Shown here piece by piece: positions 8,201 to 63,981 of a stretch of DNA of 64,000 nucleotides. Positions within the stretch are counted from its first letter, which is position 1. Each line of letters starts with the position of its first letter. Under the pieces are notes generated by a model, which was given only the letters and a program-made list of their open reading frames with translations, ran no database searches and was not told where the DNA came from. Source of the DNA: Daphnia carinata (taxonomy: Eukaryota > Arthropoda > Branchiopoda > Diplostraca > Daphniidae); contig NC_081331.1 of the NCBI RefSeq assembly GCF_022539665.2, positions 1,894,501 through 1,958,500 on the forward strand, given 5' to 3'. Both the position numbers and the translations under genes were made by a program.

Positions 8201-11200
8201 CAAATTTGCGTGTTTTCGGCCAGATGCTGGAAGTGTCTGAAACCGGTGACGGCGTCAACGTCGTGGCTGCTGTAAACGACGCTAACGTAGGTCCATCCGG
8301 CGTAGTTGAGGAGATCAATGACCGCTCTGGCTGCGACGGACATGGGAACGGGCACCTGTAAATGGTAGGCGGACGTCAGCCGAGTGTCACTTCTCTCCTT
8401 GGCGCTGATGGTCGTGATGAAATTGGAGGCCAACATCAAGGTGGCCGCTTCCGTTTCTTCGCCGCTGGTAGCCGAGACGACAGCTAACAGCTGGTCGGGA
8501 TCAATGTTGATTTCTTCCAGCATTGGGTCGCCCTCTTTGGCCAGCACGCTGGCGACCAGATGGGCCGCTTTAGCTGGCGACGAACAGGTGTCGAATACGA
8601 CGGCGCCAATTTCTATTCCATTCAACAAATCCGTGTTACGGTTAACCACATCCAATGCCCAGAGAAAAGCTTCCACGTCCTGGATTGCGTTCGGATCCAC
8701 CTCAGCGCTGCATTGCAATGGAGTCGGTCCGGCTTTGTGAACAGCGAAGAGGGCCGGTATGATAATGTCTGTGATTTTCAAGCGATGCTCGACCTGCGTC
8801 TCCAGTTCCTGTTGAGGCTCTTCATTTTCTTGTGGCTGTTGCTGGACGGCTTTGCTCCGCGAATCCCTTTCTTGATCATCCTTCAATTCTGCTCTATTCT
8901 GATGTGCTCGATCTTGTTGAGCGCTACTGGATTTGTTCACCGAAATGATGGATTCTTCCGGTTCTAAATCGCCTTCTAGGTACTGCTCGACTGGTTTGGT
9001 CTCTTCAGCGGGTTCAACGTTGCGTGTTGAAGGTGTTGTCCGGTAACTGCCGGCCGATTGGAAGTAAACGCAATCAGAGCAGCCATCGACTGGACATTGC
9101 GATGGTCTTATTTGGAATGACCGATCAATCGTCTGAGTTCCAGTCGATTTATGGTAGGAAAAAAGTTCGCGAATCTGGTCGCCTTCTGCTGAGCGGATCA
9201 GCGAAAACTTCACGTCGGATATCTTGTTGCTGGATGGTTTTTTGGAGCCAACAAATCCGGCAGGAACTCGATTTCCGGGCGAGGCGTGCTGTAGCTGTAG
9301 CGCGTGAAAGACATCGTCGTAGAATTCTTTGCGCGTCAGTTCGCGAAGAGATTGACAGTAGCCATTTTCCGATCCGCATTTCGAATCGCGGGCTTTGCGG
9401 AACGCCGACGCAAAGACATTGAGGACGTGAACTGCCGGAAGAACGCGCGTATTCCTTAACACACGTTCCAACGAAGTCTCCGCAAAGTTGAAATTATGAC
9501 AGAGCAACCAATTCGGGTCGATGGTGGTAATGTTAGCTATCGATTCCAGGTGGCATTTCTTCGTGGTGACCATGTATTCCAAGAACCAAAGATTCTCCGG
9601 AACGGCCGGAAGGACAGGGGTTTTTCTACGGAGCCAATAGCTTTCGAACTGGTCCACAATAATGGGACTAACGGCCACGGCGTAGACTTCGGCGGGACCG
9701 GTCAGTTCGGCTAGCAAGTCTGTCTTCTCAGCCGACCACGGGTGTGAAAAAAGCCACTGGTAAGGTCCACGATGGCCGACCGATGCCGCTAGGCTGAGTC
9801 TCCGTGTGACGTTCTGGGCGTCTTCTGGCGGTGAAATGACAAGGACGGCTGTCGAATTACCGGCAGCATTCATTGTGACGTCATCGGCGCTGACGGGAGT
9901 GAACGATTCGAAACAGACGCCCATTTCTTCCGCTTTCAGGCTCACCGATTTGGTGATGGCTAGGCTGTAGTCGTCATCGGCGTAGACGACCGCTACTTTA
10001 TCCCACAACATCTGCTTAGAAAACCGCACCAGGGCCTAAGGATGTAACGTGACAATAACCAAAGGAAACGATCATTTCATTGGCAAGGCTTTGTGTGCCC
10101 ATTCTCAATAGACTTGTGTTTTATGGTTTAGACTATTATTTTATTTTATTCTTTTTTTTTTTTCAAAAGAAATACGAGTCATATTGTATAGGAGGTTATT
10201 ACCTCGGCCACTTCTTCTGCCGGCAGGAAGTCGTCCAATCGGACGGCCATGAACGGAATGCTAAACGAGGCGAGCTGCTCGCCAATTTCCGGATCCTCTT
10301 CGACCAATCCGACGAAATCGATGAGCCCGAGCATCGGCTTTTCGTCTTGTTCATCCTCGTTACTACCGTTGCCGTTTCGGCAGTTGTTTGCCTCTTCTTC
10401 TTCCAGCAGCTCCGGAAAGAGGACGCCCAGCTGGCGCTCGGCCAAATCGGCGTCGCCGCAAGCATCGAAAATTTTCAAACCTAGATTCCCGGGCGAACGA
10501 ATCATGACGTGAGCCAGCGAATTTGCATATAGTATATTATATGTTAATGTGGAACACCCCCTTTTGTTTAAGTAATAACATGTGGAAAAGAGCTAAAGCA
10601 TACATAATAACTCCAGCAATAAATAGAAAAAAAGAAAAGAGTTCGGCAATGATCTTACCTAGTTTGATTCCGGGGATGAAAGATTCCTTGACTAATCGCG
10701 ACGCCACCTGTCCCGAGTTCTGGTTGATGAAGGACAGGTACCAACGGAGACTCTCGTACAACTCGATGGCTTCACGGTGAAGTCCCGTCCCGCATTTCCC
10801 GGGGGTTTCGTCATCCATTTCGCGCACGTTCAACAAGACTCCTAACATGGTCATAACAATTATTACTACCGTATCATTAGCGTCATTATCATTCCGTTTT
10901 AAATCGCTGTGCTGTGGATAGCACTTAAAAATGGAACGCATCCCGGAAAAAAAAAATGAAAATAAAACCTAGGACAATTAAGAACTTTTTCTTTTCTCCA
11001 ACAAATCGTCTTAATGATGGGCTAAAATTAAAATGCCATTAGAATAAACCAGTTTTTTTTTAAAGCCTACAATCAACGGCATAGAACTCGTGAAAATCAT
11101 CAGTGCTTTGACATTTCTCCCCCCCCCCCTCCCTACATTCACGTTATTGATGTCTAGAGTCGTCTGATTTGTGACTTGGAAACCCAATGCCAAGACATTA

Positions 11201-40680: not shown

Positions 40681-42150
40681 TCAATTCGGGACAAATTTTG
40701 GGGAAAGGGGGATCTTCAAATAACCCTTGATGTTATTGTGAAAATCGGGTTTTGGTATTGTGTAATTTGTGTACTGGTCAAACATTTGGATTAAAAGTAT
40801 GTTTGAGTATTCTCCTCGCTGTGCCAATCGGCCTATTAGAATTAGTTTTGATAGAACAAAATAACTAAACATGTGTTGTGACGCCGATACAGAAACATTA
40901 CAGTCAGACTGTGGCAGATAATTCCGAATTCCACAGTGCTGATAACTTCGGGGGGAACAAATCACCAGAACAAAAAGGTATGTGAAGGATGAACATAGGT
41001 GGCAAAACTTGATGATACATGAACCCCATGTAAAAAAGAAAAAAACAGCAACCAAAAAGTAAATTAGTGACATTTACTAACCGATGACTTTGTCATACAG
41101 TATTTGTCTGCAAAGTCAACAAGGCCTTCAAATTTGACGAGGGCAATGTCGTTGTAAGTTCGCTTTGATAGTATTCCAGAGAATAGTGACAGACTACATT
41201 CCTTTCGATGAGTTGAATTTAGACAACAGTTAAACAACAGCAATTATCCTGTAACACAGTGAGCAGCAATGAGCCCGTGAGAAGACCCCAATAATAATAC
41301 TCCACACACGTCAGCACCCTCGTTTTCATCTTTCTTCAAAATAAAAGCTTGTCTGGAAGGCTCAACTACAGGAGTTGTTCCAGTATAGCATCTGTCATCA
41401 AATGTTGGCAAACGCTTTCTCCGATTTGGAGGCCATCTCGTCCGTTGAAACATATGATACGAGCAACTTTACCTCTGTGGTTTCAGGATGGTGTCTGCGT
41501 TCGTTTTTAACAACGAAACTGTAGAGAGCAATGTAATGACAATTCACAATTAATTTAAGCGTGTCAAAAATTAGGTATTATATTCCGAAAATGTACCAAC
41601 ATTTACAGTTACATTAGAAAATTACGAAGTTTAGAATGCACTTTGGCTCAAATAGATTTCGAGCTTAAATTTTACGAATTACAACCAAGTAAATTTATTG
41701 CTAAAATGACAAACGAAGAATATAAAGCGGAAACTAACATACCTGACGGGCGGTGCGTCTGAAGATGGTGCCAAGGCAACATTTGCAGTGGAAGATCCCT
41801 GCAAGAATGTGAACTGAATTGTTGGCCACCGCCTTATATAAACGTCGACACGTTCCACGTCCTGGCTTTCCCAGAATAAAAGTCTAGGGTAGGGGTGCAA
41901 TTCTGAAGGCCGATAGCCGTAAGATAAACATTAACTTCCACGTGAACTCCGGGAGATGGCCGTTCCCCCTCGATGAACTCAAACGCTTGCACCTAAAATA
42001 AATGAATAACCTTGGGCAATTCAAAATAAAGAATCAAAACACCATTTTGACCTTTGCAGCTCAGTAGCTCACCCACCTGCACGATATGCACTAGCGTAGT
42101 TTTATCGCTTCGATTACCGGTGTAGTCATTCACACTTTTTCACATGAATT
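40681..42150 (-). pseudogene. degraded or unusual trypsin-like serine protease exons
   Basis: On the minus strand, 41,453-41,244 reads to GVLLLGSSHGLIAAHCVTG, which matches the histidine-box region of trypsin-like proteases (TAAHC). Further along, 41,200-41,095 reads KRTYNDIALVKFEGLVDFAD, matching the box around the catalytic aspartate (NDIAL). Upstream, about 42,128-42,071 and 41,992-41,880 read as two coding-like exons joined by a CAG|GTGGGT donor and a TTTTAG acceptor. They include FEFIEGERPSPGVHVEVNVY, which I do not recognise. I could not find the GDSGG serine box downstream to 40,681. I also could not connect the His and Asp exons with clean splice phases. It may be a pseudogene, an inactive protease homologue, or a gene whose exons I have mis-joined. 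Confidence 0.4.
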
Positions 42151-42446
42151 GATTTTGCCTTCACCAATTGGATACCTTTTATATTTTGTGGATACACCAA
42201 TCACGCACTAAATAAGCACTGCATCAGCACTTCGTCTTGCCTCTGCACTAGTTTAGTTCAGTTGCATATGCCATTTCACTGGGTCGTATAGCTAAATCAT
42301 TGCTTTTGCACAACATTACCCTGGTCATTTCATTTCACTATCTTATGCATTATTTAGCAGTAGCCATTGCTCGCAATCCGTTTCTCTATAATGAATTGAA
42401 TGTTTTGATCATGTCACACAATTTCCAAATGCCCCATCACTCCTAA

Positions 42447-42503
42447 GGACCTCACGACTACTAATCCTAACGACCTCATGACTACTAATCCTAACGAACT
42501 ATT
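42447..42503. repeat. short direct repeat (24-bp unit, two copies plus partial)
   Basis: A unit of about 24 bp with the core CGACTACTAATCCTAACGA (second copy ATGACTACTAATCCTAACGA) is repeated twice, with a few substitutions. It lies 140 bp before the large exon-like array. Confidence 0.7.
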
Positions 42504-42645
42504 GTCAATAATGATTTTTTTTTTCAGGAACTTTGCTATGAATGTGATTGTTAAAACTGTCTGTGATGCCTGTTAGATTTAAGCTGAAACTTGTCGTTAT
42601 CTAATTATTCAAAAGCAATTTTTTTTCCCGTTTTTGTGCGATCAG

Positions 42646-45600
42646 GAGGGCAATCTGCGGAGGCCGAAAAGGACACCGGACATCGAGGATCATCGCGGGA
42701 GCTACAAGATCGTCGCACAAAAAGGTATCAGTGATAAATTAAAGTGTACTAACTGTGTTTTTTTTGTATTTTATGTATCTAGATTGGCCGGCCAAGGGGC
42801 CGAAAAGGCCCAACGAGAATCGTCGTGGGAGCTACAAGATCGCCGTGGGATCGTCGAGATCGTCGCCAGTAAGGTATCAGTGATAAATTAAAGTGTACTA
42901 ATTGTGTTTTTTTGTATTTTATGTATCTAGATTGGCCGGCCAAGGGACCGAAAAAGCCCAACGAGGATCGTCGTGGGAGCTACAAGATCGTCGTGGGATC
43001 GTCGAGATCGTCGCCAGTAAGGTATCAGTGATAAATTAAAGTGTACTGATTGTGTTTTTTTGTATTTTATGTATCTAGATTGGCCGGCCAAGGGACCGAA
43101 AAGGCCCAACGAGGATCGTCGGGGGAGCTACAAGATCGTCGTGGGATCGTCGAGATCGTCGCCAGTAAGGTATCACTGATAAATTAAAGTGTACTAATTG
43201 TGTTTTTTTTGTATTTTATGTATCTAGATTGGCCGGCCAAGGGACCGAAAAGGTCCAACGAGGATCGTCGTGGGAGCTACAAGATCGCCGTGGGATCGTC
43301 GAGATCGTCGCCAGTAAGGTATCAGTGATAAATTAAAGTGTACTAATTGTGTTTTTTTGTATTTTATGTATCTAGATTGGCCGGCCAAGGGACCGAAAAG
43401 GTCCAACGAGGATCGTCGTGGGAGCTACAAGATCGCCGTGGGATCGTCGAGATCGTCGCCAGTAAGGTATCAGTGATAAATTAAAGTGTACTAATTGTGT
43501 TTTTTTGTATTTTATGTATCTAGATTGGCCGGCCAAGGGACCGAAAAGGCCCAACGAGGATCGTCGTGGGAGCTACAAGATCGTCGTGGGATCGTCGAGA
43601 TCGTCGCCAGTAAGGTATCAGTGATAAATTAAAGTGTACTAATTGTGTTTTTTTGTATTTTATGTATCTAGATTGGCCGGCCAAGGGACCGAAAAAGCCC
43701 AACGAGGATCGTCGTGGGAGCTACAAGATCGTCGTGGGATCGTCGAGATCGTCGCCAGTAAGGTATCAGTGATAAATTAAAGTGTACTAATTGTGTTTTT
43801 TTGTATTTTATGTATCTAGATTGGCCGGCCAAGGGACCGAAAAGGCCCAACGAGGATCGTCGTGGGAGCTACAAGATCGCCGTGGGATCGTCGAGATCGT
43901 CGCCAGTAAGGTATCAGTGATAAATTAAAGTGTACTAATTGTGTTTTTTTGTATTTTATGTATCTAGATTGGCCGGCCAAGGGACCGAAAAGGCCCAACG
44001 AGGATCGTCGTGGGAGCTACAAGATCGTCGTGGGATCGTCGAGATCGTCGCCAGTAAGGTATCAGTGATAAATTAAAGTGTACTAATTGTGTTTTTTTGT
44101 ATTTTATGTATCTAGATTGGCCGGCCAAGGGACCGAAAAGGCCCAACGAGGATCGTCGTGGGAGCTACAAGATCGTCGTGGGATCGTCGAGATCGTCGCC
44201 AGTAAGGTATCAGTGATAAATTAAAGTGTACTAATTGTGTTTTTTTGTATTTTATGTATCTAGATTGGCCGGCCAAGGGACCGAAAAGGCCCAACGAGGA
44301 TCGTCGGGGGAGCTACAAGATCGTCGTGGGATCGTCGAGATCGTCGCCAGTAAGGTATCAGTGATAAATTAAAGTGTACTAATTGTGTTTTTTTGTATTT
44401 TATGTATCTAGATTGGCCGGCCAAGGGACCGAAAAGGTCCAACGAGGATCGTCGTGGGAGCTACAAGATCGCCGTGGGATCGTCGAGATCGTCGCCAGTA
44501 AGGTATCAGTGATAAATTAAAGTGTACTAATTGTGTTTTTTTTGTATTTTATGTATCTAGATTGGCCGGCCAAGGGACCGAAAAGGCCCAACGAGGATCG
44601 TCGTGGGAGCTACAAGATCGTCGTGGGATCGTCGAGATCGTCGCCAGTAAGGTATCAGTGATAAATTAAAGTGTACTAATTGTGTTTTTTTGTATTTTAT
44701 ATATCTAGATTGGCCGGCCAAGGGACCGAAAAAGCCCAACGAGGATCGTCGTGGGAGCTACAAGATCGTCGTGGGATCGTCGAGATCGTCGCCAGTAAGG
44801 TATCAGTGATAAATTAAAGTGTACTAATTGTGTTTTTTTGTATTTTATGTATCTAGATTGGCCGGCCAAGGGACCGAAAAGGCCCAACGAGGATCGTCGT
44901 GGGAGCTACAAGATCGCCGTGGGATCGTCGAGATCGTCGCCAGTAAGGTATCAGTGATAAATTAAAGTGTACTAATTGTGTTTTTTTGTATTTTATGTAT
45001 CTAGATTGGCCGGCCAAGGGACCGAAAAGGCCCAACGAGGATCGTCGTGGGAGCTACAAGATCGTCGTGGGATCGTCGAGATCGTCGCCAGTAAGGTATC
45101 AGTGATAAATTAAAGTGTACTAATTGTGTTTTTTTGTATTTTATGTATCTAGATTGGCCGGCCAAGGGACCGAAAAAGCCCAACGAGGATCGTCGTGGGA
45201 GCTACAAGATCGTCGTGGGATCGTCGAGATCGTCGCCAGTAAGGTATCAGTGATAAATTAAAATGTACTAATTGTGTTTTTTTGTATTTTATGTATCTAG
45301 ATTGGCCGGCCAAGGGACCGAAATGGCCCAACGAGAATCGTCGTGGGAGCTACAAGATCGTCGTGGGATCGTCGAGATCGTCACCAGTAAGGTATCAGTG
45401 ATAAATTAAAGTGTACTAATTGTGTTTTTTGTATTTTATGTATCTAGATTGGCCGGCCAAGGGACCGAAAAGGCCCAACGAGGATCGTCGTGGGATCGTC
45501 GAGATCGTCGCCAGTAAGGTATCAGTGATAAATTAAAGTGTACTAATTGTGTTTTTTTGTATTTTATGTATCTAGATTGGCCGGCCAAGGGACCGAAAAG

Positions 45601-46736
45601 GTCCAACGAGGATCGTCGTGGGAGCTACAAGATCGTCGTGGGATCGTCGAGATCGTCGCCAGTAAGGTATCAGTGATAAATTAAAGTGTACTAATTGTGT
45701 TTTTTTGTATTTTATGTATCTAGATTGGCCGGCCAAGGGACCGAAAAGGCCCAACGAGGATCGTCGTGGGAGCTACAAGATCGTCGTGGGATCGTCGAGA
45801 TCGTCGCCAGTAAGGTATCAGTGATAAATTAAAATGTACTAATTGTGTTTTTTTGTATTTTATGTATCTAGATTGGCCGGCCAAGGGACCGAAAAGGCCC
45901 AACGAGAATCGTCGTGGGAGCTACAAGATCGTCGTGGGATCGTCGAGATCGTCGCCAGTAAGGTATCAGTGATAAATTAAAGTGTACTAATTGTGTTTTT
46001 TGTATTTTATGTATCTAGATTGGCCGGCCAAGGGACCGAAAAGGCCCAACGAGGATCGTCGTGGGAGCTACAAGATCGTCGTGGGATCGTCGAGATCGTC
46101 GCCAGTAAGGTATCAGTGATAAATTAAAGTGTACTAATTGTGTTTTTTTGTATTTTATGTATCTAGATTGGCCGGCCAAGGGACCGAAAAGGTCCAACGA
46201 GGATCGTCGTGGGAGCTACAAGATCGTCGTGGGATCGTCGAGATCGTCGCCAGTAAGGTATCAGTGATAAATTAAAGTGTACTAATTGTGTTTTTTTGTA
46301 TTTTATGTATCTAGATTGGCCGGCCAAGGGACCGAAAAGGCCCAACGAGGATCGTCGTGGGAGCTACAAGATCGTCGTGGGATCGTCGAGATCGTCGCCA
46401 GTAAGGTATCAGTGATAAATTAAAGTGTACTAATTGTGTTTTTTTGTATTTTATGTATCTAGATTGGCCGGCCAAGGGACCGAAAAGGCCCAACGAGGAT
46501 CGTCGTGGGAGCTACAAGATCGCCGTGGGATCGTCGAGATCGTCGCCAGTAAGGTATCAGTGATAAATTAAAGTGTACTAATTGTGTTTTTTTGTATTTT
46601 ATGTATCTAGATTGGCCGGCCAAGGGACCGAAAAGGCCCAACGAGGATCGTCGTGGGAGCTACAAGATCGCCGTGGGACGCAGGGACATCGAGGATCGCC
46701 GCCCAGCCCCGAGATTCCGCCCATTAGGATACTGAA
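42646..46736 (+). repeat. tandem array of about 27 exon-plus-intron units (148-bp period)
   Basis: Units start with ATTGGCCGGCCAAGGGACC at 42,783, 42,931, 43,079, 43,228 and onward to 46,611. The period is 148 bp, with 149 where the T-run is one longer and 128 in one deleted copy at 45,448. On the plus strand each unit reads as an 86-nt GC-rich block, then GTAAGGTATC (donor), TACTAAT (branch site), a T-rich tract and TATCTAG (acceptor), giving a 62-nt intron. A diverged first block (42,646-42,724) follows its own acceptor (GCGATCAG) and ends in AAAAAG|GTATCAG. The last block is diverged after its first two thirds and runs to a stop at 46,733-46,735. The best protein frame is basic: WPAKGPKRPNEDRRGSYKIV. 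The first block has the related DIEDHRGSYKIV, and the last ends RRDIEDRRPAPRFRPLGY. No known family is recognised. Confidence 0.9.
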
Positions 46737-46745
46737 AATCTGAAG

Positions 46746-46937
46746 ATGGTACGGTTGAGTATTGCCAAATTGGCATTTTTTCTTACTTTATTCTATGCTG
46801 TGAGGTGTGTGTTTTTTAGATGTTGGGATATTGGGCCCTTTTTTCTTACTTTGGTTTTCCATTCAAGCACTACGGCTTATGGTCATTGCACAATGCCTTC
46901 ACCTTGTAGTGAGCACGAAACTTCACAACTCATTTAG
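46746..46937 (+). CDS. possible small secreted peptide (42 aa, two exons)
   Basis: The ATG at 46,746 lies 11 bases after the stop of the last array block. Exon 1 (46,746-46,804) encodes MVRLSIAKLAFFLTLFYAV, a typical signal-peptide core. A GTGAG|GTGTGT donor and a TTTTCCATTCAAG acceptor (46,867) bound a 63-nt intron. Exon 2 (46,868-46,937) gives YGHCTMPSPCSEHETSQLI after a likely cleavage at STTA. The intron is also in frame and stop-free, so a retained form of 63 aa is possible. The two cysteines could form a disulfide. No family is recognised, and a short signal-peptide-like frame can arise by chance in T-rich DNA. Confidence 0.35.
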   Translation: MVRLSIAKLAFFLTLFYAVRCVFFRCWDIGPFFLTLVFHSSTTAYGHCTMPSPCSEHETSQLI

Positions 46938-47258
46938 CACATGGTTCTTTGGCTGTTTTTATTAGCTCACCATCATCCACCAGGTAGGGAGGCTTGTTTT
47001 TATGTATTTAACTCCGCACTTCACATAAGTATCTCACTTAAACATTTGTTGGTGTAGGTTTACTAATACTAACTGCTTTCAGGACAAAAAAGAAAACGAA
47101 ATAAACGTATTCGCTTTGGCCAGCGTTTTAAAAAAATCACTATTGGACCAGGGTTTGAATCAGCCTGGCTTTCATTCTTTTATTTTTAAAAGATAGTGTT
47201 AATTTGTATAAATTGTATTTGTATTGCTGTTTTCTTTCTATTTGTATTAGTGTCACTA
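46938..47258. other. non-coding gap after the array
   Basis: T-rich sequence. A good branch site and acceptor occur at 47,065-47,083 (TACTAAC then TTTCAG). No open frame reaches it in a consistent phase from the preceding peptide. Nothing else is recognised. Confidence 0.4.
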
Positions 47259-48290
47259 GATGGCAGTAAAACAAAGATATAAAGTCGTTATTGTGTATTA
47301 TTTTCTAATCGCAACAACCAATAACGACTTTATTTTACTCAAACATATTATTCATACCTATAACACGCAATCATTCTAATTATTATTAGAATTACATTCA
47401 TTATATTTGCTGCAGTACAAAATGGAAAGTTAATAGTAATAATAATAAAGTTAAGCAAGTAGATTAAAACAAAATAATTGCTGCATAGTTATATTTTAAT
47501 CAAATAAAGTTATTAATTTTAAAAATTATATATTTATATGGTTAGAATGCGTAAAGTACTGGCCGATAGATGGCCATAGCTGTAAAAAGAAAAATGGGCC
47601 TTTTTTCTTTTTTACACTACCGCCATCTACCGGTCAGATTCTAATTAAGTTTCTAAATACAACTTTACATATTCTAGCCATATAAATATGGAATTTTTTT
47701 ATTAATAATTTAATTTAATTTACATACAACTAAACCTTATTTTATTTTGTTATACTCTATTTCCTTAACTTAATTATTATTACTATTCACTATTGACTTC
47801 ATTTTGAACTGCATTTTGCAGCAATGATAATGAATTAAATTCCAATAACAATGAGAATAATTGCTTGTTTTAGGTATAAAAAATATGTTTGGGTAATATA
47901 AAGTCGTTGTTGTTTGTTCCGGTGTGAAAATAATACACAATAACGATTTCATATTACTCAAACATATTATTTATTCCTAAAAAAAGCAATTATTGCTATT
48001 ATTATCATTGCTGCAAAATGCAGTACAAAAAGGAAAGTTAATAGTTAATAGTAATAATAATTAAGTTAAACAAGTTGAATATAACAAAATAATTACTGTA
48101 TAGTTGTATGTTAATCAAATAAAGTTATTAATTTAAAAAATTATATATTTACATGGCTAGAATATGTAAAGTTGTGTTGGGAGGCTTAATTCGAATTTGA
48201 CCGCTAGATGGCCATAGCTGTAAAAAGAAAAAATTTGGTCTTTTTCCTTTTTTACAGCTACGGCCATCTAGCGGCCAAATTCCTATTTAA
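47259..48290. repeat. chain of alternating hairpin modules (MITE-like)
   Basis: Four hairpins punctuate the stretch: about 47,279-47,333, 47,560-47,636, 47,885-47,975 and 48,200-48,282. The first and third share arms of the type ATAAAGTCGTTATTG. The second and fourth share arms with (C)TAGATGGCCATAGCTGTAA. The A/T-rich spacers between them (about 47,360-47,560, 47,645-47,885 and 47,980-48,195) are copies of one sequence in alternating orientation: forward, reverse, forward. There is no transposase frame. It looks like nested or end-to-end copies of a non-autonomous inverted-repeat element. Confidence 0.75.
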
Positions 48291-49747
48291 TATTCTCTCT
48301 CATTCCTTCAGGCATGGTTTGTATATGGTTACTTGAACACTGGATTTGCAAATGCAGTACAGCTGACTTATGTTTCACATGGTCAGTTGGAGATTTCCCA
48401 GGCAAAATTTCTAGTAACTCAGCATTTGGTACCATCTGTACTATATTTTTATACAGTATCCTGCATGTCTCATTAATTAAGATTTAAATCCTTTTATAGA
48501 TTGTCACATCAGTGAGCAAGGTTCAGTTTAGGGATTGAGAGCCCTCAGCGACTATAACACCTAGCCCATATTCAAATTGTAGCACTTGATTACTGCCACT
48601 GATTCTTCAAAATGCCTATCTTGTATGGAATGCTTGACAGCCAAATGGTACTCCGACGTCACATAAATATCAATTGTTTACTTTATTTACATTTATTAAA
48701 AATTTTTGAAGGAATGATTTAAACAAATGCCAAAGGTGAGACATGCTGGAAAAGCTTGATATGAATGTGTAGATGTAGTTTTGGAATTCAGAGGTGCAGC
48801 TGGCTGTTGGGTAAAACTTCATTAAAATTTTGTTTCAATTCAATATGTTTTAGTTACTATTTGTGTGATTACGCAAAGGATTGTGCCATCCAGGCAATGT
48901 GGATATTCTGCCATGTACATGATAAACCGAGGATTCTTCGTCAACATGCAAGCTGTTACTCCCTGGTAATGCTTTTCTGCTGAGTTTGTTTAGTTTTCTA
49001 ATTTTAATCGTCAATGTTGTATTAGTAAACTACTGTTGGCAGAAAAGCTGATACATTGGGAAAATGGTTATGGCAAGTGCGATGAATAAATCACCATAGG
49101 TCAGTTGTCTTGCCTTCACAATTACAACGAAGATGAATCATGGAGTCAAAAACATTAAAAGGTGGTACTATTTTAAATTTTTAAATTGTTTTAATTGGTG
49201 TATCGCTAAGTGCTGATACATGTGTAGAACATGATGGAATTCATGTCATCCTGGAGAGGACTAAAAAAAACGAGCTTTATCCACGAAGCAGCTCATTAAT
49301 CATGTCCCAAACGATTGTCTGCGTCAGCCAGCAATCTTTCAATGGCTAACAAGCATTTAATAGTTTTGAAAATCGTGGTTTGCACTCCCTAAGGCGACAT
49401 TCCTTAATCCTCACCTGTCAATAGATTTGAGTGCAACCATTTCATTCTGAACTGTCGCCTACGAAATTCTTTTTCCATAAAAGCAGGTGATATGATGTTA
49501 TAATGGAAATTGTTGTCAAGATTGCCGAGACCAGGTACACTGTTTACCTTAACATTTAGTGATCAAAACAACCAACTTTGTAACCTATCTGTTTTTTATG
49601 GTGCATGGAACGTCCAACCGGAAAGCCCATGGAAGATCTCTGTGTCTAACACGAAGGGTTTTTCCAAACTTTCGTATTCAAGTTTTGGCTATGGTGATCA
49701 TTTGCAACTGCATAGCCTTTTAGAAGCTCCTGCCAGGAATCTACAGG
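48291..49747. other. unassigned stretch
   Basis: A/T-rich DNA. A stretch after a TTCCTTCAG acceptor at 48,309 is open in two frames for more than 50 codons. I recognise neither product and could not link them to a start or a downstream exon. No other feature is seen. Confidence 0.4.
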
Positions 49748-53534: not shown

Positions 53535-56018
53535 TTACGACGCATCTTTGGTTTCGTTTTCGCTGGAATCGCCTGAAATACTGGATGCGGAACTTGGAAT
53601 GTTACCCTCAGCTTCCGGCCTGAATTTCTTGCAGCAAGCGCATTTGGCGAACTGGCGATCGTACGGCTCCAGGGATCGACAAGCAAGCGGAAGCCACTTC
53701 CAATTCCGCATTGTTTTCGGTAGCCATGATGGTTTTTTGCGCTGTAGTGTTTTGATAATGGCTATTGCGATCAAAAGAAGCACAAACGGAATACCAACGC
53801 ATAATAGTGGGATAGTTCCAGCGACAGAGAGACCCAAAACGATTCCGGGGAAAAGGAAGAACATTCCCACCAAATATATAATGGCGAACCATCGGTATTT
53901 GGCCGTCTCATTGCCGAGGAATTTCGCCATTGGAATGGGAAATCGCATAAACGGAATGGGGTAGTAAAGCAAAATGCCCGTTATGTTGAAAAACAAATGG
54001 ACCAGTGAAATTTGCAAAGTGTCCTGAAGTTTTTCGACTGGTGCGGCCAACGCAGCGATGAGCGACGTCGTTGTCGTTCCAATGTTTGATCCCAAAGTTA
54101 GTGGATACACTCGTTCAATCGAAATGACACCGATGCCGACGAGAGGAGTAAGTGTCGACGTAAACACCGAGCTCGACTGAACCAGAAAGGTAATAACCGC
54201 ACCAACAATCATAGCAAGATAGCCGGTCAGCCAAGGGACGTATGGAATTTTGGCATTAATCACTCGTTTGATAATGTTGGCAATGTGTCCTGAAAATTTG
54301 TAATTTGTCATCTTAGCAGATCCGATTATTTTTTCTTGGAATTTGGAAGCAGAATAATTATACCTTTCATCATGGAGTTGAGAATTTTGACTAAACCAAC
54401 GAGACATCCGCAGAGCATGAAAAGTGAGATGAATAAGAGAATCAGACCGACAGCCCAATCTTCTAGCCCTGTGTTTTCGAACAAAAATTCGCCCTCTGAA
54501 ATGAAAAAAAAAACACAAATAAATAAATTACAAATTATGATCAATTTTAACGGTTTTTAAAATACAAACGTACCACAAGGAACAGGCTGGGTGATGTTTT
54601 CGCCGCACTGCTTGATTAAGGAAGCGTTGTCGTAATTTGGATCGCCTGCTGCCCAGCCCTCAAGGACTTGGGAATCAAGCTAAAAGTGCAATTATTTAAG
54701 GATTTGTTTAGCCTGCACAATTAAAGAATGACTTTTCTTACCTGAATAATTTTATCTACGAACGGGTCTATGATGGCATTCAACAAGGTAACCCCGCCGT
54801 TCCCGGACGAAGAATTGACGCCTTTAACAATTTCTCCAGTCAACCATTCCAGATAACCGATTCCAAATATTGAGTCTGCACAAAACAAAGCACTATTATG
54901 CCTCCAATCTTTTACAAGTAAATTGAGCTGTTCACGAAACGAAAATTTCGTACTCGAAACGATTTCAACGGTAAAGAGAACAATGACGGCCAGCCAATTA
55001 AACATATCGTGTACTGTCGCCCCAGCGAAAGCTCTTCTAAACTCGTTTCTGTTGGCGATCTGGGTGAAGGACACAATTGTGTTTGTCACTGAAGTTCCAA
55101 TATTGGCACCCATGATGATTGGGATTGCCATGTGAACGGTAATAACTAAACAAAATTGAGACACAATTAGACTGATTGCACGCGACAATGGCTTTGACTT
55201 TGACCGTTCCGAAAATGATACAGCAAAAAAAAAGTATTTCAGCTTACTGTCTGCGGCAACCATGCTGACCACAATTGATGTAGATGTTGAAGAACTTTGA
55301 ACGAGTACGGTGACTAGAATTCCAATCATCAAACCAACCACGGGGTTTTGCATAAGTTCACTTTGCTGAAAAAGTTCACCTGGAACCGAGGGAGTTTTAT
55401 GTTTTTCAATCCTTGAATTCACTTCATTCTTCTAAATTAAAGAATATTTACCGGCTGTTTTTCCAGCAATGAGGCGGAATGCGCTAGAAAGTAAGGTTAG
55501 GGAGCATATGAAGAAGTAGAGCAATCCTAGTGCAGTTAGGATTTTGGCGAAGTTGATTAGCACTCGGATTATTTTGGCCTTCGTAGTCATGTCTGTGATT
55601 CACGGGGAAAATAGCATTCATGTAGATCGTTTCTTTATAGATCAAGCTTAACATTTTTGCAACGTACCAGCCCATTTCTCCGAGTCGTCTACTAGCTCGA
55701 TGATGGCCCACGGATCGTCAACATTGGCTGCGATGGCAGAATCAGAATCATCAGAACTCGAACTTGCCCGCCGACTGTCAACTCCTTTCTCCATAAGGTC
55801 AGGATCAATCACGCCCACTGTTTCGCTAGAAACATTTTCCTGTCAATCGAAAAGAGCGCACGCAATTCGTTAATGTTGATGTAAAATCTTAATAGGGTGT
55901 TTTAAGTGTAAGAGGAAGATTACGTAAGACAATTCAAGGTTTAAAACGACACTACCTCGGATGGTGGGTTGACAACCTTTCCTTCGAGGGTCAGCTGAGT
56001 AGCCCTACTGATTGTCAT
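53535..56018 (-). CDS. sodium-dependent phosphate cotransporter, copy A (SLC34 / NaPi-II family)
   Basis: The nine exons are 56,018-55,956, 55,839-55,668, 55,592-55,452, 55,379-55,248, 55,145-54,954, 54,875-54,742, 54,679-54,574, 54,495-54,364 and 54,289-53,535, giving 608 aa. The family couples Na+ and phosphate import at the plasma membrane. The two QSSS motifs that mark the inverted transport repeats are present at residues 153-156 (QSSSTSTS) and 395-398 (QSSSVFTS). The family motifs [11 protein letters not shown] and [10 protein letters not shown] follow. A large extracellular-loop segment ([22 protein letters not shown]) and a cysteine cluster near the C-terminus (KCACCKKF) also fit NaPi-II. 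The chosen ATG follows a short leader. An upstream untranslated exon (about 56,160-56,075) probably joins at 56,022 through a 52-bp intron. It lacks the intron found in copies B and C inside the ATVHDMFNW motif. It is shorter than the roughly 630-690 aa of vertebrate NaPi-II proteins, but the core is intact. Confidence 0.92.
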
Positions 56019-56022
56019 TTTC

Positions 56023-56074
56023 CTACGATAAAAAAAATTGGTTGAAACTAAGCGTTATTAACAAGAAAACTTAC
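56023..56074 (-). other. probable intron in the 5' leader of copy A
   Basis: A donor TTTTTC|GTAAGT (56,075/56,074) and an acceptor TATCGTAG (56,023) lie four bases before the start codon. The length matches other introns in this gene. Confidence 0.5.
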
Positions 56075-56189
56075 GAAAAAAATTACCAGGGGTTCTATAG
56101 CCTTGGCAAGGGTGGTTTTTCACCTTGAGTTCACGAAGTGACAAACGCTTCTCCGTGTGCTGCAGCTAGATATCAGCGAAACTCACCCA

Positions 56190-56196
56190 TTTTATA
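56190..56196 (-). promoter_or_regulatory. TATA box of phosphate transporter copy A
   Basis: TATAAAA on the minus strand (CACCTATAAAATGGG), about 30 bp before the inferred start of the leader exon near 56,160 and about 170 bp before the ATG. No equivalent was seen for copy B. Confidence 0.5.
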
Positions 56197-57398
56197 GGTG
56201 ATCATTCGGTGTAGCAGGAATGTGACCGACCCCTGTTATCCAACCTAAAGTCACTTATCGTGACACGAAGTCTTCAGAGTCATTACCACGTGCTACCGGT
56301 GTGACACATTGCGTCACCATTCATGAGGGTATTCACCAGCAACAGGGATAGTGATCTAGGGCACCATGACTTTGAATGTTGAAGTAACAAATAATCCCAG
56401 TCCATTATCGCCTAATCTTGTAAGACGAGTTGACGGAGCGATCACGTCTGACAGTAGGAATCTACTATTGCGCTACCATGGGAAAACTGTGAAGATGATA
56501 GGCTACTTTACTTGACTGGGCGGGGAGGAGGGGTAGGTAACGTAAATATCAATACATTCTGAAACACACGGCAATAGCGTCTGGGAGAAGAAGGCATTGA
56601 AAACATTTCTACTTGTCTGTGATTTCTCTTATCATTTTTTTACTTTAGCTTCTAGTGGTGGAAAAGTAATGAATAGGTCAATCAAAGCTCGCACTAGCAA
56701 AGGCCATGAAACCAGAAAAACTGGCTCCATTGAACTTTGAACATGCAGGACGTCGTGTTGGATGATACAACAATCATCAATCCCGTGTGCAGCTTCGTTG
56801 TAAAGTTTTCCAACCATTAACGGAGTCGAATGTGATCGGATTTAAACTGTGACCGCTGTAACCAGAGTTGCAAACACACTCCCCCTTTCCTCCCTTTTCA
56901 AGATAGGAAAGCACACCCGCTCGTCCTTGGACGTAAACGAACGGCGTTAATAGGATTTACAAACAACTCGATCGTTAAGCTTACCAAAAGGAATCGACTG
57001 CGGACATTGGAAGGTAGATAAAAACCCTGAATAGCCTTGAATGGATGTAGCGGTGCATGTCTAGCTTAAAATACACGTAACATAAGCAAAAACGTCGTAG
57101 CGAGTTTCGCAGTTGAACTCTTGCTAGTTTTATTGAGGCAGTATAGCCAATGGTACGTTTGAATGTGGTCAGTGCCAAATCAAGCAAAAAAAACTTGAAA
57201 AATAAAACAACCGCAAAATTATTTGAGAATACACCATTGGTTTATAAATTTTCCGAAGACACGAAATGTAACCTAATCCCATCATTTCAGTATACCGGAT
57301 GGTCGATAAAAATGTTGCGTAGCTTATGGCCTTGTACCTATTGCGGTCGCCATTGTTTTACAGGTAGTCTTAGGACGAGATGGAAACTCGATTAATTT
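56197..57398. other. intergenic region between transporter copies A and B
   Basis: It contains the upstream region of copy A and the 3' untranslated region of copy B. A minus-strand AATAAA polyadenylation signal lies at 57,129-57,134, about 265 bases after the copy B stop. The 81-codon plus-strand frame at 57,150-57,395 lies opposite this untranslated region and is not called. Confidence 0.5.
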
Positions 57399-59995
57399 TC
57401 AGGTTGTCTGATTCAAATCGGTTGAACTTTCCGATTCGACGAGAACAACGGAACTCGTCGTGTTGTTTTCTTTACTATCTTCACCCTGTCGAAACTTGTT
57501 ACAGCAAGCGCATTTGGCGAACTGGCGATCGTACGGCTCCAGGGATCGACATCCAACAGGCAGCCACTTCCAATCCCGCATGACGGAAGGCAAAAGAAAA
57601 GGCCACTTTCGCTGCAAAATTTTGATGACGGCTATGGCGATCAAAACAATTAAGACCGGAACGCCTACGACTAGCAATGCGATGGTGCCAGCAATGGAAA
57701 GACCCAAAACTATAGCAGGCAAGAAGAAGAACATTCCTACTAGATAGAGAATGGCGAACCATCGATACTTGGCAGTTTCGTTGCCGAGAAACTTAGCCAT
57801 TGGAATCGGAAACCGCATGAATGGGATAGGATAGAAAAGTAAGATGCCAGTGACGTTGAAGCATAGATGGACCAAAGATATTTGCAAGGTGTCGTGCAGC
57901 GCATCTGGCGAAGCTGCTAAAGCGGCAAGAAGGGCTGTTGTTGTCGTACCAATGTTGGACCCCAAAGTGAGCGGATAGACTCGCTCTAGCGATATAACAC
58001 CGATACCAACAAGTGGAGTAAGCGCTGATGTAAAGACAGAGCTAGACTGAACTATGAAAGTCATTCCAGCTCCGACAGCAAGGGCTATGTAACCGGTGAG
58101 CCATGGAACGTAAGGGATTTTGGCGTTGATCACGCGTTTGATGACGTTAGCAATGTGTCCTTCGTTAGGAACAAAATAACATTGTTGTGTCAGGACTTAA
58201 ATTTAAAAAAGTAACCCGAATTTTTTACCTTGCATCATGGAGTTGAGGATCTTGACAAGGAAAATAAGGCAGCTGCAAAGTATGATCAGTGAAATGGCCA
58301 GAAGAATTAATCCCACAGCCCAGTCTTCCATTCCGGTGTCTTCAAATAGAAATTCTCCGTCTACGAAAGCGCAAATTACAAACGTATTTTTTTAAAGACA
58401 TCTGGAGCGACTCTAGGTCAATGGCTGCAGTAACATAGGTTCACAGAGAAACAAATTTACCGCATGGTATTGGGTCGGTGACATTTCCGCCACATTGCTG
58501 AATTAGCGAAGCATTTTCGTAACGAGGATCATCGTTAGCCCAGCCTTTTAACACTTTCGAATCTAACTGCAAAGTAAAGATCGCGTTCATGGAGATTCGA
58601 CATTGGAAAAAGAAGTTGATCGATTAGCAACTACTAAAGCGACTTACCTGTATGATAAGGTCTACGAAAGGATCTGTTACTACCGTCAAAATTTTTATTT
58701 CTCCTTCGCCAGAAGACGTGTTGACTCCGTTGACGATGACGCCACTCAACCACTCCAAGTAGCCAACACCGAAGATGGGTTCTGAAATTGGGAATTGAAA
58801 AGAGTTTGTTTAAAAACCGACTGAGACGTGGGTTATGTGAAATCCTTACGGCAAACGACTTCAACGATAAAAAGAACGATCACTGTCAACCAATTGAACA
58901 TGTCGTGTACCTGAAACACGCAAAACAGTACAACATTGAATTACTTATGCACCGCGACAAAAAGAACGTTGAAAAATGCATACCGTTGCGCCAGCAAAGG
59001 CTCTTCTAAATTCATTTTTGTTGCCGATTTGAGTAAAGGAAACGATGGTGTTAGTAACTGAAGTTCCAATGTTGGCACCCATGATGATTGGGATTGCCAT
59101 TGCAACGGTCAGAACTAAGTAAATAGAAATGATTTGTTAATCCCTAGACTATGTATAGTAAACGAAAAAAATGCGTAATAGCGAATTACCACCAGCTCCG
59201 ACCATGCTCACAATGATGGAAGTTGACGTGGAAGAACTCTGAACCAATACGGTGACTAAAATGCCAATCATCAATCCAACGACAGGATTTTGCATGAGCT
59301 CGCTCTGCTGGAAAATTGTACCTGTACGAAATCAATAAAGCGTTAAGTCAATAGCGATTATTTCACAGTTATAAGACTTGGTAATCATGTTTGTTGAGGA
59401 GCACTTAGCTTTAAAATTTGTGTAAAACACACCAAAAACAATTTACCAGCTGTTTTTCCAGATATCAGGCGAAATGCGCTGGAAAGTAGGTCTAGCGAGC
59501 AGATGAAGAAGTACAGTAAGCCAATAGCAGCAAGTATTTTCGAGACGTTGGTCACCACTCGGATTACTTTGGCTTTCGTGCTCATATCTGGAACGCAATG
59601 CGTGCAAAAAAATGAGGAAATTAAGTGGCTATACCAAAAGTACCATTTTACACTGTTATACCTTCCCATTTTTCAGAATTGTCGACGAGCTCAACAATCG
59701 CCCATGGATCCTCTTCGGCTGATGCTGGTGCCGGGACACTGTCAACACTTGGGCTATCAGATGTCTCTGATTGAGCCTTATTCCTTCTGGAATCAATACT
59801 GCTATTGCTTTCAACGTCATTGCTAACAGACATCTAATGGAAATTATTGAAGAATAAAAGGATTTTTTTCAATATTCTTTCGGTTTGTTTAGGTAAGTTG
59901 AAATTCAAAAAGGAGAAGCAATTTACGGCATCCGAAGAATGTTCGCTGTTCTTTTCTTTCGGATCGGCAGATGTAGGGATCAGTGTGTTGGTCAT
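57399..59995 (-). CDS. sodium-dependent phosphate cotransporter, copy B (SLC34 / NaPi-II family)
   Basis: The ten exons are 59,995-59,927, 59,833-59,662, 59,587-59,447, 59,321-59,190, 59,114-58,984, 58,910-58,850, 58,781-58,648, 58,566-58,461, 58,360-58,229 and 58,159-57,399, giving 612 aa. The QSSS motifs are at residues 155-158 and 397-400, with [11 protein letters not shown] and [10 protein letters not shown] near them. The extracellular-loop segment reads [22 protein letters not shown], and the C-terminal cysteine cluster is KCACCNKF. Exon lengths 172, 141, 132, 134, 106 and 132 are identical to those of copy A, so the pair arose by tandem duplication. Compared with A, an extra intron splits ...[11 protein letters not shown]. 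The cytoplasmic N-terminus is serine-rich and differs most from A. The start codon lies at the beginning of a short exon; a leader exon ending at 60,087 probably joins at 60,004. Confidence 0.92.
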
Positions 59996-62244
59996 CTTCG
60001 TTGCCTATTAAGTAAAAACGAACAGGTTAATAAAGAATAAGTGACCATTCACTTTTTTTTTTTTTTTTTTTGCAAATAAGACGTACCGGTTCCGGTGAGC
60101 GTTGAGCTTAGTCGATTTTATTTGACAACAGGACTGTTTCAAATAATATCTTCCAAGACTAGTGAGAGTTACTAGTGAACTGCTACGCGACCAGGTGTTT
60201 GCGGACGAATTTATTGAAAACGTTTCATTTGTTCGGAATGCAAGCAACGTTTTTCATATCGCCCCTTAATTCTTCTTTAAAGAACAACATATAGCTTTAC
60301 ACACGACCACGCGTTAATTGCCCCTTCCGCACGTGATATAACTGTGGCCTTGTGTTTCTTATGTTGAAAAATGGCGAATAAACGCTTCACACCCGGAACA
60401 CGCAACAGATAACATAGCACTTAGTGATCCGTTACTAGATCTATTTTTAACGTAATACCTCAATTAACAGAATGACGGAAAACCATTTGAAGTCGGCCGG
60501 CATTTCAGTAGGTGAGCTGGGTAGCGTAACGTTTAACGTTACAGTCATACAGTGGTAAATTCTAGCCCATCCAAAGCCGGGGATAAAAGGCTTAGCTTTA
60601 TTAGCTGTCTACAAAGTCGTCGATTCGCTGGTACGTGTTAAAATTTAATTCCAGTACATTTTAACGGGACTTATAGCGAAGAAATCTAGGTAACAAAAGC
60701 TCGATTAATATGTAAGTAGCAGTACCTGGTGTTGATCATTTTTTTGCTAAACTATTGAAAATGGTAATAGCAACAAACCCTTGCCACCAACAAAGAGGAT
60801 TAACATAAATATTATGGGAAGTTATAACATGAAAGGGAAAATCTTTGAACTTGTTAGATAGGATTGAAATATTGTGACTACATGTTCAAGACGTCCTATC
60901 ACACTTTAGGTGTGAAATCCGTGTTTCTTATCGAGCTTTGTAAAACGCATAAATAGGGAAAAATTTCCCTAAAGAAAGATCAGTCCGTCCACTGACTTCT
61001 AGTACTCATAACACCATTGATGTAGAGCCAGAATCATGTTTTTTCCCTCTCAATCGCCTTATACAAGTTGAAATGAATCATATATTCTTGGTTTACAACA
61101 GCTACACTAAGTAGTTGGGGAAACAAAAAAAAGTCAAACAGGGTTGCGATGAAATACCTTTGGGTAGTAGCCAACAGTGACTTTCAACCCTCCCTAACCG
61201 ATTTTTGTTTTAAACAAACACTAAGAAACGAACCAAACGACAGACAAAATTGCGCAATACGTGTGATGTGGTACGTCGTCTTTGATAATCTATTTGTCCA
61301 TCTATTATCTCCTACAAGGTTGCGATTTAGCCAACAACAAAATCGCTGCAAGAACAGAGTAGACATTGATCTTTCGCGCACGGCACGCCCGTGATCGTAC
61401 GTAAAGCTACAAACAAGTAGATTATCTTTCTTTAAAATGCCAAGCCCCCGAACTCAGTCAACTCTTCCCGAAAAGAAAAAGAAAGATACATTTTATTTAC
61501 GTATTTATTTTTTCGAGGCAACGCCAAACAAAATGGATACGGCGAGCCAAAGTAGGTCATTTCGTTCATGCGCATTTTTTAGGCGCGCATTATTACTATC
61601 GGGAAGCCGGAATTTGCGCTTCACAGTGTAAGGTTCACTAACACATTGAAGTTTATGCGGCACAGTCACAGATCCGGAACCAGAGAAGAAATACGAGAAC
61701 AAACGTTTCAAACAAGCTGCATATATTGCCTTTAAATATATGTAAAAACGTTCAGGCATATACAAAATGAAAAAAAAAATAATAATAATTAAAAAAAACG
61801 TGTGCGAGATTCTGTTCTGTTCAAAGGCTAACAACATTCTAACCGAGCACAGTGTAGCCGATTCTCTAGCCATAAAAATTGTGCGCTTGTTGGGACTGAA
61901 AACGCCTTTTAGGCTTACCAATTCGATACATTTCCGCATTAGACATTCTGTTCGTAGAATAATAATTACGCAATAGTAATTGCGTGGAAATAACATTATA
62001 ATTTAATAAGAAGGCTGTGGAAGTGCGGTTGGGGTATAGGCGGTATTCCTAAATCGCTTTTGTTTCTAACTTTGATGCGAATCCTCTCACCATCCGCCAT
62101 AAAAGAAATTGCATTTAGCGGTAAATTCTAGGTAGTACTAGAGCAAGGGATTCGCAAGTAAGATAGGTACCGCTCATAAATATATGAACTAGCCAAAATG
62201 GTGGGTAAATAGGCATTAAATAGGCATAGCAGCCTCCTAACCGG
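59996..62244. other. intergenic region between transporter copies B and C
   Basis: A probable leader intron of copy B spans 60,005-60,086, with a donor ACCG|GTACGT and an acceptor TTAATAG, next to a long T-run. The remainder is A/T-rich DNA with promoter sequences of B and 3' sequences of C. Minus-strand AATAAA signals occur around 61,495-61,510. No coding exon is seen. Confidence 0.5.
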
Positions 62245-63981
62245 TTACTCGTACCCTAAATTCGAATGACCAGCAGGAAGACCATTGCCGTTTTTTTCTG
62301 AGCCCTTACAACAAATACAGCTCGATAGGAGTCGATCAAAGGGTTCTAAGGACCTCATGTAAAGCGGCAGGAATTTCCAGGTCCGCATAGCAACCGGTAG
62401 CACAGTCGGCATTTTACGTTGTAAAACGGAGACGATCACGACGGTTGTCATCAAGATGACAACGGGAGCTAAAACAGCGATCAAAGTGATTGTGCCAGCA
62501 AAGGAAAGGGCGAGAACGATGCCGGGCAATAAGAAGAACATTAAAATGAGATACGCGATGGCGAACCATCGGTACTTGGCCGTTGTTTCGCCTAAACATT
62601 TAGCCATCGGAATGGGGAAACGCGTGAACGGGACTGGATAAAAGAGCACGATACCTGTCACGTTGAAAATAAAATGACACAACGATATCTGCAAGGTGTA
62701 GCGTAATTGTTCAGGTGGGGCGGCAAGCGCGGCTATCACGCTAGTGGTTGTTGTGCCAATGTTGGATCCCAAGGTGAGCGGGTAGACTCGTTCCAGCGAA
62801 ATGACGCCCACGCCGACTAGTGGAGTTAGCGCCGATGTGAAAACCGAACTGGATTGAACCAAGAAGGTCATAATGGCGCCGATTGCAATGGCCAAGTACC
62901 CAGTAATCCAAGGGACATAAGGTATGTTTGCGTTGAGTACTCGTTTAATGACGCCAGCGATTTGACCTATTAGAAGGTTATAATGTCAATCGTGAATAAA
63001 GTCGTATAAGGAAGCAGACTGGCGAATACCTTTTAACATGGAGTTGAGCACTTTGACAATGCAGACTAAGCAACCGCAAAGGACGCTTAGCGAGACTACG
63101 AGCAAAATCAATCCAACTTCTGCATCGTTCAAACCAGTGTCCTTCATAAGGAAAAAACCTGAAGGGTTTCCAAAAAATTTAGATAGACGGAAATGATTTC
63201 TAAAAGGATAAGGGAATGACCCATTTTTTTTTCAGATAAAAAATGTAAAGACAAAATTTGCGCTAAGGTGGAGCCATACTTACAAGGTTCTCTGATTTTG
63301 ATTCCGTTGACCACAACCGGGCAGTATTGTTTGATTAAAGAAGAATTAAAGTACGTGGAATCGTTTTTCGACCAGCCTTCGAGTACCCCTTTGTCAATCT
63401 GCAAAATGTACAAGCCATCGTTATGTTAACGTTCTAAAAATTGATTAGGCCAATAAGTTCCGTTCGATTTATTACTTGGACAATAAGCTTAGAAAGCGGT
63501 TCAGTCAGAGCGTTCAGAAGCTTGACCTCACCGCCTCCTGGACCACCAGATCCAATGTGTTGCGTTGCGGATTCACTCGTGGCTTCAAGGAATCCTATTC
63601 CAAATGTCTCTCCTATTCAGAAATGTTTCGCTAATTATTAGAGCGTTCAATTACATAAATTACTCGATATGGAAGCTAAACCGCTCCGTTTTACATTAAC
63701 GACTATTAAACTGCAAGATTGGCTTACGCGATATGATCTCGACAGGAAAAAGAATGATAACCGACAACCAGTTGAACATGTCCTAGACATAAATAAGGAT
63801 AAATATCGATAGAACTAATAATAACTATTTAATAACGATCTCACGTGCACTGTGGCGGCAGCAAACGCTCTGCGGAATTCGTTACGATCGCCCATTTGGG
63901 TCAATGAAACAATGGTATTGGTTACCGAGGTGCCTATATTTGCACCCATGATAATGGGAATAGCGCACCGTACTGTGAGAA
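62245..63981 (-). CDS. sodium-dependent phosphate cotransporter, copy C (partial at window edge)
   Basis: Six 3' exons are visible: 63,981-63,845, 63,782-63,728, 63,612-63,476, 63,398-63,284, 63,158-63,030 and 62,966-62,245. The 5' exons lie beyond 64,000. The visible part starts at [17 protein letters not shown] and includes [11 protein letters not shown], the second QSSS motif (QSSSVFTS) and [10 protein letters not shown]. It ends in a cysteine cluster (SCICCKGSE) and a short tail. The extracellular loop is more diverged ([18 protein letters not shown]) and contains a glycine-rich insert (GSGGPGGGE). The DWAVG motif before the loop-side helix is DAEVG here. Exon lengths differ from A and B by multiples of three (137, 115, 129 against 134, 106, 132). 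It is the most diverged of the three copies, but no frame break is seen. Confidence 0.9.

Follow-up and report, generated by a model that had tools for sequence, protein, structure and literature searches.

A tandem exon-intron array in Daphnia carinata and its dispersed relatives: a possible family of spliced, probably non-coding RNA genes

Exons can be amplified in tandem within coding genes, as in the kringle IV region of apolipoprotein(a) and in Dscam, where the reading frame is kept. The array described here is similar in that an exon and its intron have been amplified between unique end exons, but different in that, over all loci of its family, the frame is broken in 17 of the 18 changed exon lengths. 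Homogenised tandem arrays are also familiar from satellite DNA and from transposons that carry central tandem repeats, such as DINE-TR1 and Tetris. The Daphnia arrays resemble these in their unit of near 150 bp, their homogeneity and their dispersed sites; however, they keep splice signals, and 24 of 27 loci have a first-exon motif. Ampliconic genes in palindromes are known from mammalian Y chromosomes. Diverged relatives of the array are likewise paired in inverted orientation, and in two of the three pairs tested the arms are nearly identical. What is paired here, though, is a gene with many small exons, and no long reading frame is found in the palindromic copy. In the long non-coding RNA Firre, a repeat makes up 7 of 13 exons in human and 11 of 23 in mouse, according to PMC4820808. 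The Daphnia repeat would likewise form many exons of one RNA, and, as in Firre-type RNAs, there is no conserved reading frame (stops in all three frames at 14 of 15 loci, with the locus L017 as the exception). The Firre repeats recur discontinuously in one locus, whereas those of Daphnia are compact units of 140-148 bp, placed head to tail at many loci. No description of the array family appears in the titles and abstract openings among the literature matches listed.

The array lies in a stretch of 64,000 nucleotides of the D. carinata genome (contig NC_081331.1, positions 1,894,501 to 1,958,500), referred to as the window. Tandem Repeats Finder reports a 148-bp unit in 27.0 copies at window 42707-46678 (96% matches, score 7360), which bears out the first-pass annotation of about 27 near-identical exon-intron units. 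The region 42646-46983 resolves into 28 exons with 27 introns between them (Table 1), the internal exons being 91 nt long in 25 of 26 cases and 71 nt in one. The proposed acceptor TATCTAG is present in all 27 introns. A branch site TACTAAT had been claimed for every unit; TACTAA is found in 26 of the 27 introns, and the remaining one carries a substitution. The array contains 26 copies of GTAAGG and 27 acceptors, and the blocks from an acceptor to the next GTAAGG measure 86 nt in 25 of 26 cases and 66 nt in the other.

Table 1. Coordinates of features of the array and its surroundings in the window.
Feature	Position	Strand	Remark
Frames resembling parts of a trypsin-like serine protease	41067..41468	-	AAHC and NDIAL stretches
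Shared upstream block	41630..42640	.	About 83-87% DNA identity among subfamily A copies; weaker pieces in other subfamilies
Conserved upstream core	42063..42096	.	Window copy has 3 mismatches from the searched pattern
Stretch between candidate upstream acceptor (T-rich, CAG|GAA) and exon 1	42528..42645	+	
Exon 1	42646..42724	+	79 nt
Array of 27 introns alternating with 26 internal exons	42725..46610	+	Introns 56-58 nt in the 26 measured
Sole intron with altered branch site	43022..43078	+	TACTGAT
Internal exon with 20-nt deletion	45448..45518	+	71 nt, frame shifted
Last array exon	46611..46983	+	Conserved GAAGATGGTACGG...GGCATTTTT block (about 46742-46780)
Candidate terminal intron	46984..47082	+	CAG|GTAGGG ... 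TTTACTAATACTAACTGCTTTCAG
Candidate terminal exon	47083..47130	+	AATAAA at 47100-47105; end inferred

The annotation had taken GTAAGG as the splice donor, with 86-nt exonic blocks and 62-nt introns. The blocks are there, but the donor and the intron length probably do not hold. The motif AG|GTATCA sits 5 bases downstream of GTAAGG and is present in all 27 window introns; it also follows exon 1, which lacks GTAAGG. GTAAGG is absent from that position at 15 of the 27 intron-bearing loci in the genome; it is probably not the donor and was rejected as such. With AG|GTATCA as the common donor, exons are mostly 91 or 83 nt long (88 and 47, respectively, of 164 exons, units above 130 nt being left out of the counts) and introns mostly 57 nt, as in the window. 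Among 194 introns from 27 loci, called with a tolerance of 4 mismatches in 18 bases, GT is found in 194, AG|GT in 193 and the exact AG|GTATCA in 181. Called acceptors end in TAG in 190 of 192 cases, and the two exceptions, at L028 and L033, both seem to have lost theirs.

The unit is found at 29 places, the window and 28 others, with at least 120 genome matches. Of these places, 27 carry recognisable introns, from one up to 27; L035 (no intron) and L036 (a 35-bp match) are excluded from the intron counts. Thus the earlier picture of one gene with an amplified internal exon survives as regards amplification and homogenisation between distinct first and last exons, but not as regards a single gene. 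The intron pattern has 189 matches in the genome, of which 189 lie in the 29 examined loci, and a reversed control gives 0, so that a missed array is unlikely at that sensitivity. A wandering intron was considered and rejected, as the number of intron matches genome-wide equals that at the array loci (at most 3 mismatches). The annotation had also named dispersed satellite blocks of the unit as evidence against it. This holds in part: the unit does recur, but at 24 of 27 loci it has the exon-1 motif ahead of it (the motif was not found at L026-L028). The last-exon pattern, allowing 3 mismatches, has 15 matches, and the same last exon is found in the 16 copies aligned. Each array lies on one strand, and in one orientation to its flanks where these align. 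Subfamily A (L037, L009, L010 and L029) has about 1.1 kb of left flank in common (83-87%). Similarity spans 3.4 kb in subfamily B, and the main block is about 0.8-1.1 kb in the others.

The surroundings of the dispersed copies contain other sequences. At most subfamily B loci, frames for a YYTT-repeat protein lie on the opposite strand, up to 3.4 kb to the left and often across two or three frames; such frames occur in the flanks of L013, L017, L018, L021, L026, L030 and L033. Near the L029 array, a frame at 6084-6479 (oriented) resembles what we take to be an RR-type cuticle protein. Contig C92, which holds L038 and L039, has two COI copies about 16.7 kb apart, with 95% identity to each other. 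The COI of C106 (L040) is 100% identical over 447 aa to that of a D. carinata record, and one of the C92 copies is 83% identical to it. The question arises whether C92 represents foreign DNA in the assembly or a nuclear mitochondrial insertion.

To the left of the window array, the conserved core of the shared upstream block may be the splice donor of an exon on the opposite strand. A 71-aa minus-strand peptide from this block matches no Pfam family at E 1. The minus-strand frames further upstream presumably represent parts of a trypsin-like serine protease; L029 matches both their AAHC and NDIAL stretches and L010 one of them, at 42-59% on the protein level. At the right end, a distinct last block had been recognised and stands, but its end at 46736 probably does not: the conserved block, a candidate terminal intron and AATAAA all lie beyond, and the last exon probably extends past that position. 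Of five copies aligned in this part, only L037 and L010 have a clear AATAAA. Right of the array, window 47277-48296 contains repeats in both orientations, similar to each other and to L021, in which the only Rfam matches are sub-threshold microRNA ones. Elsewhere in the window are two adjoining long frames with ANF_receptor domains, one of them with a class C 7TM domain as well (3137-10029, minus strand), and several frames resembling a Na/Pi cotransporter cluster (53535-62895), of which the one scanned matches Pfam Na_Pi_cotrans.

Variation in the introns is distributed unevenly. The 134 introns of 57 nt in loci with four or more show no within-locus variants at GT/AG and 72 at the 47 other positions (p 0.0065), and between the consensuses of 23 loci there are 0 at GT/AG versus 70 elsewhere (p 0.006); the input was 151 introns of 57 nt, including these 134, and the AG half of the test is circular because of the 57-nt length filter. 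The branch site alone is not depleted of variants (5 in 6 positions, p 0.21). The units of L041, a diverged relative, were delimited at sites that had been chosen from motif lists by eye. They average 63% identity, yet the aligned donor has GT in all 11 and the acceptor has AG in 8 of 11. On this pattern, selection appears to keep the splice sites but, at most loci, no reading frame. Conservation of the splice sites could partly come from shared descent or homogenisation.

Unit and flank tell different histories. Between many loci the unit consensuses are 0.94-0.99 alike (162 units), whereas the 800-bp left flanks are 0.52-0.58 alike in global alignment (15 loci); for L010 and L016, for example, the values are 0.99 and 0.53. 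Conversely, L013 and L018 have flanks that are 0.97 alike but differ in unit type (91 versus 83 nt), and L013 itself mixes two types, with units 1-9 of the 91 type and the last, unit 10 (84 nt), of the other. Only one identical unit sequence is shared between loci, by L011 and L013. High unit but low flank identity, mixed unit types and this shared unit together point to units passing between loci and multiplying inside them. However, in most large arrays every unit has its nearest relative within the same locus, and this, with the single shared sequence, indicates that exchange is not continual. L023-L025 retain more diverged units, with consensuses 0.81-0.91 alike to the others.

More distant relatives occur in inverted arrangements. 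L041, on contig C2, has the same anatomy as the arrays, with about 12 diverged units, and lies inside a palindrome, the arms of which each hold an array gene and are 97.7-98.1% alike. The end part of L041, 901 bases long, gives 128 genome matches, chiefly on C2 (2.58-3.79 Mb) and C9 (6.3-7.5 Mb), and by the author's count matches of the L041 type form 14 convergent pairs about 5.5-10 kb apart. The arms are 99.9-100% alike in two of three pairs tested and 81% in the third, with 78-86% between pairs. The near-identical arms would agree with either conversion between them or recent insertion. No palindrome or inverted pair was seen at the window locus. Both arms of the L041 palindrome contain tRNA-Thr (CGT) calls, at 5324-5394 and 6282-6352, together with further tRNA-like repeats.

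The reading favoured here, at slightly better than even, is that the window array belongs to a multicopy, spliced, probably non-coding family of Daphnia RNA genes in which internal exons have been amplified and exchanged. The sequence shows the shared upstream block, a first exon and then a GC-rich exon, in most cases of 91 or 83 nt, repeated up to 27 times with a 57-nt intron carrying AG|GTATCA, TACTAAY, a T-rich tract and TAG; after the repeats come the conserved last exon and the candidate terminal intron. Transcription and splicing of the array would produce a single long RNA built of repeated exon modules, with a length that tracks copy number. The pattern of unit types suggests that units multiply within a locus by unequal exchange and move between loci by gene conversion or reinsertion. 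For the repeated exon as an RNA module, the nearest worked model, by analogy only, is a repeat-domain long non-coding RNA of the Firre type.

The annotation had suggested instead that the array yields a long repetitive basic protein. Read with 86-nt exons, the window is indeed open for 776-782 aa in the three frames; however, when one 86-nt exon is dinucleotide-shuffled 5000 times, 11.8% of the shuffles leave all three frames open as well, and the donor that this reading needs is the one missing at 15 of 27 loci. When exon 1 and the internal exons are instead spliced at AG|GTATCA, all three frames contain stops at 14 of 15 loci. L017, which favours coding, has one frame open for 241 aa over these exons (280 aa including part of the last exon). 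Only 14 of 164 exon lengths are divisible by three, and 17 of the 18 units that deviate from the modal exon length of their locus, counted as units and not as independent events, differ from it by a length that is not a multiple of three. Protein searches differ between the readings. The 91-nt reading gives no match at E 0.01 or better among 21 candidates, while the 86-nt reading matches two proteins without known function. One is a D. magna model of 215 aa (E 2.8e-15; locus OUZ56_030553), the other a metagenome protein of 212 aa (E 5e-5), from which it follows that the family extends beyond the D. carinata genome. The D. magna model, annotated as a protein, contains an apparent exon 1 and three near-identical 34-aa units, with the same intron translated, seemingly by read-through; a 34-aa repeat would preserve the reading frame, so that D. 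magna may have a unit of this kind. The metagenome protein contains the last-exon block. Neither a start codon nor a coding exon upstream was identified for the array, and a 125-aa frame from L013 matches no Pfam family at E 1. A protein gene, at the window or only at some loci or relatives, is therefore judged quite improbable, and the family is, from these frames, probably mostly non-coding in D. carinata, with products from some loci possible. As to structured RNA, Rfam searches of five loci at E 0.5 gave no covariance-model match inside the arrays; those outside are tRNA in the L041 palindrome and two sub-threshold microRNA matches in L037. A stable exon fold is not supported as the conserved feature, as only the window form folds better than shuffles (z -2.2; the other three 0.1, 0.5 and 1.0).

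If the arrays are not coding, they might also be not transcribed at all, but a satellite-like repeat in segmental duplications or a mobile element, with an intron-like appearance inherited from a dead gene. Recurrence of the unit at 29 places, with anything from a partial unit to 27 introns, agrees with this, as do the high identity of units beside poor identity of flanks, which is usual for satellites, and the convergent pairs and palindrome of the diverged relatives. Diverged copies, though, retain splice sites while frame and flanks change, most copies have the exon-1 motif and the aligned ones the same last exon, and related protein models exist elsewhere; this explanation is considered unlikely. 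The palindrome and the 14 convergent pairs, with arms in two of three cases far more alike than different pairs are, would also suit a transposable element that has tandem repeats inside and long inverted ends, presumably foldback-, Galileo- or Helitron-like, of which the dispersed arrays would be relics. This is very improbable, as L041 has no stop-free frame longer than 147 aa and the dispersed loci show no common ends over the stretches compared, their similarity breaking off at the differing lengths given above for subfamily B and the others.

Within the favoured reading of a spliced RNA gene family, a bolder version is put forward tentatively, with the balance leaning against it. A self-spreading exon-intron module of 140-148 bp would have overwritten internal exons of paralogous non-coding genes throughout the genome and multiplied there, so that a mutable copy number sets RNA length and splicing alone is selected.

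A family of this kind would be a case in which selection apparently keeps splicing, rather than coding or an RNA fold, in an amplified repeat. Its loci would provide a natural series, from 1 to 27 near-identical exons, for the study of array splicing, repeat-domain RNAs and the exchange of units between loci. In clonally reproducing Daphnia, the rate of copy-number change would be directly measurable.
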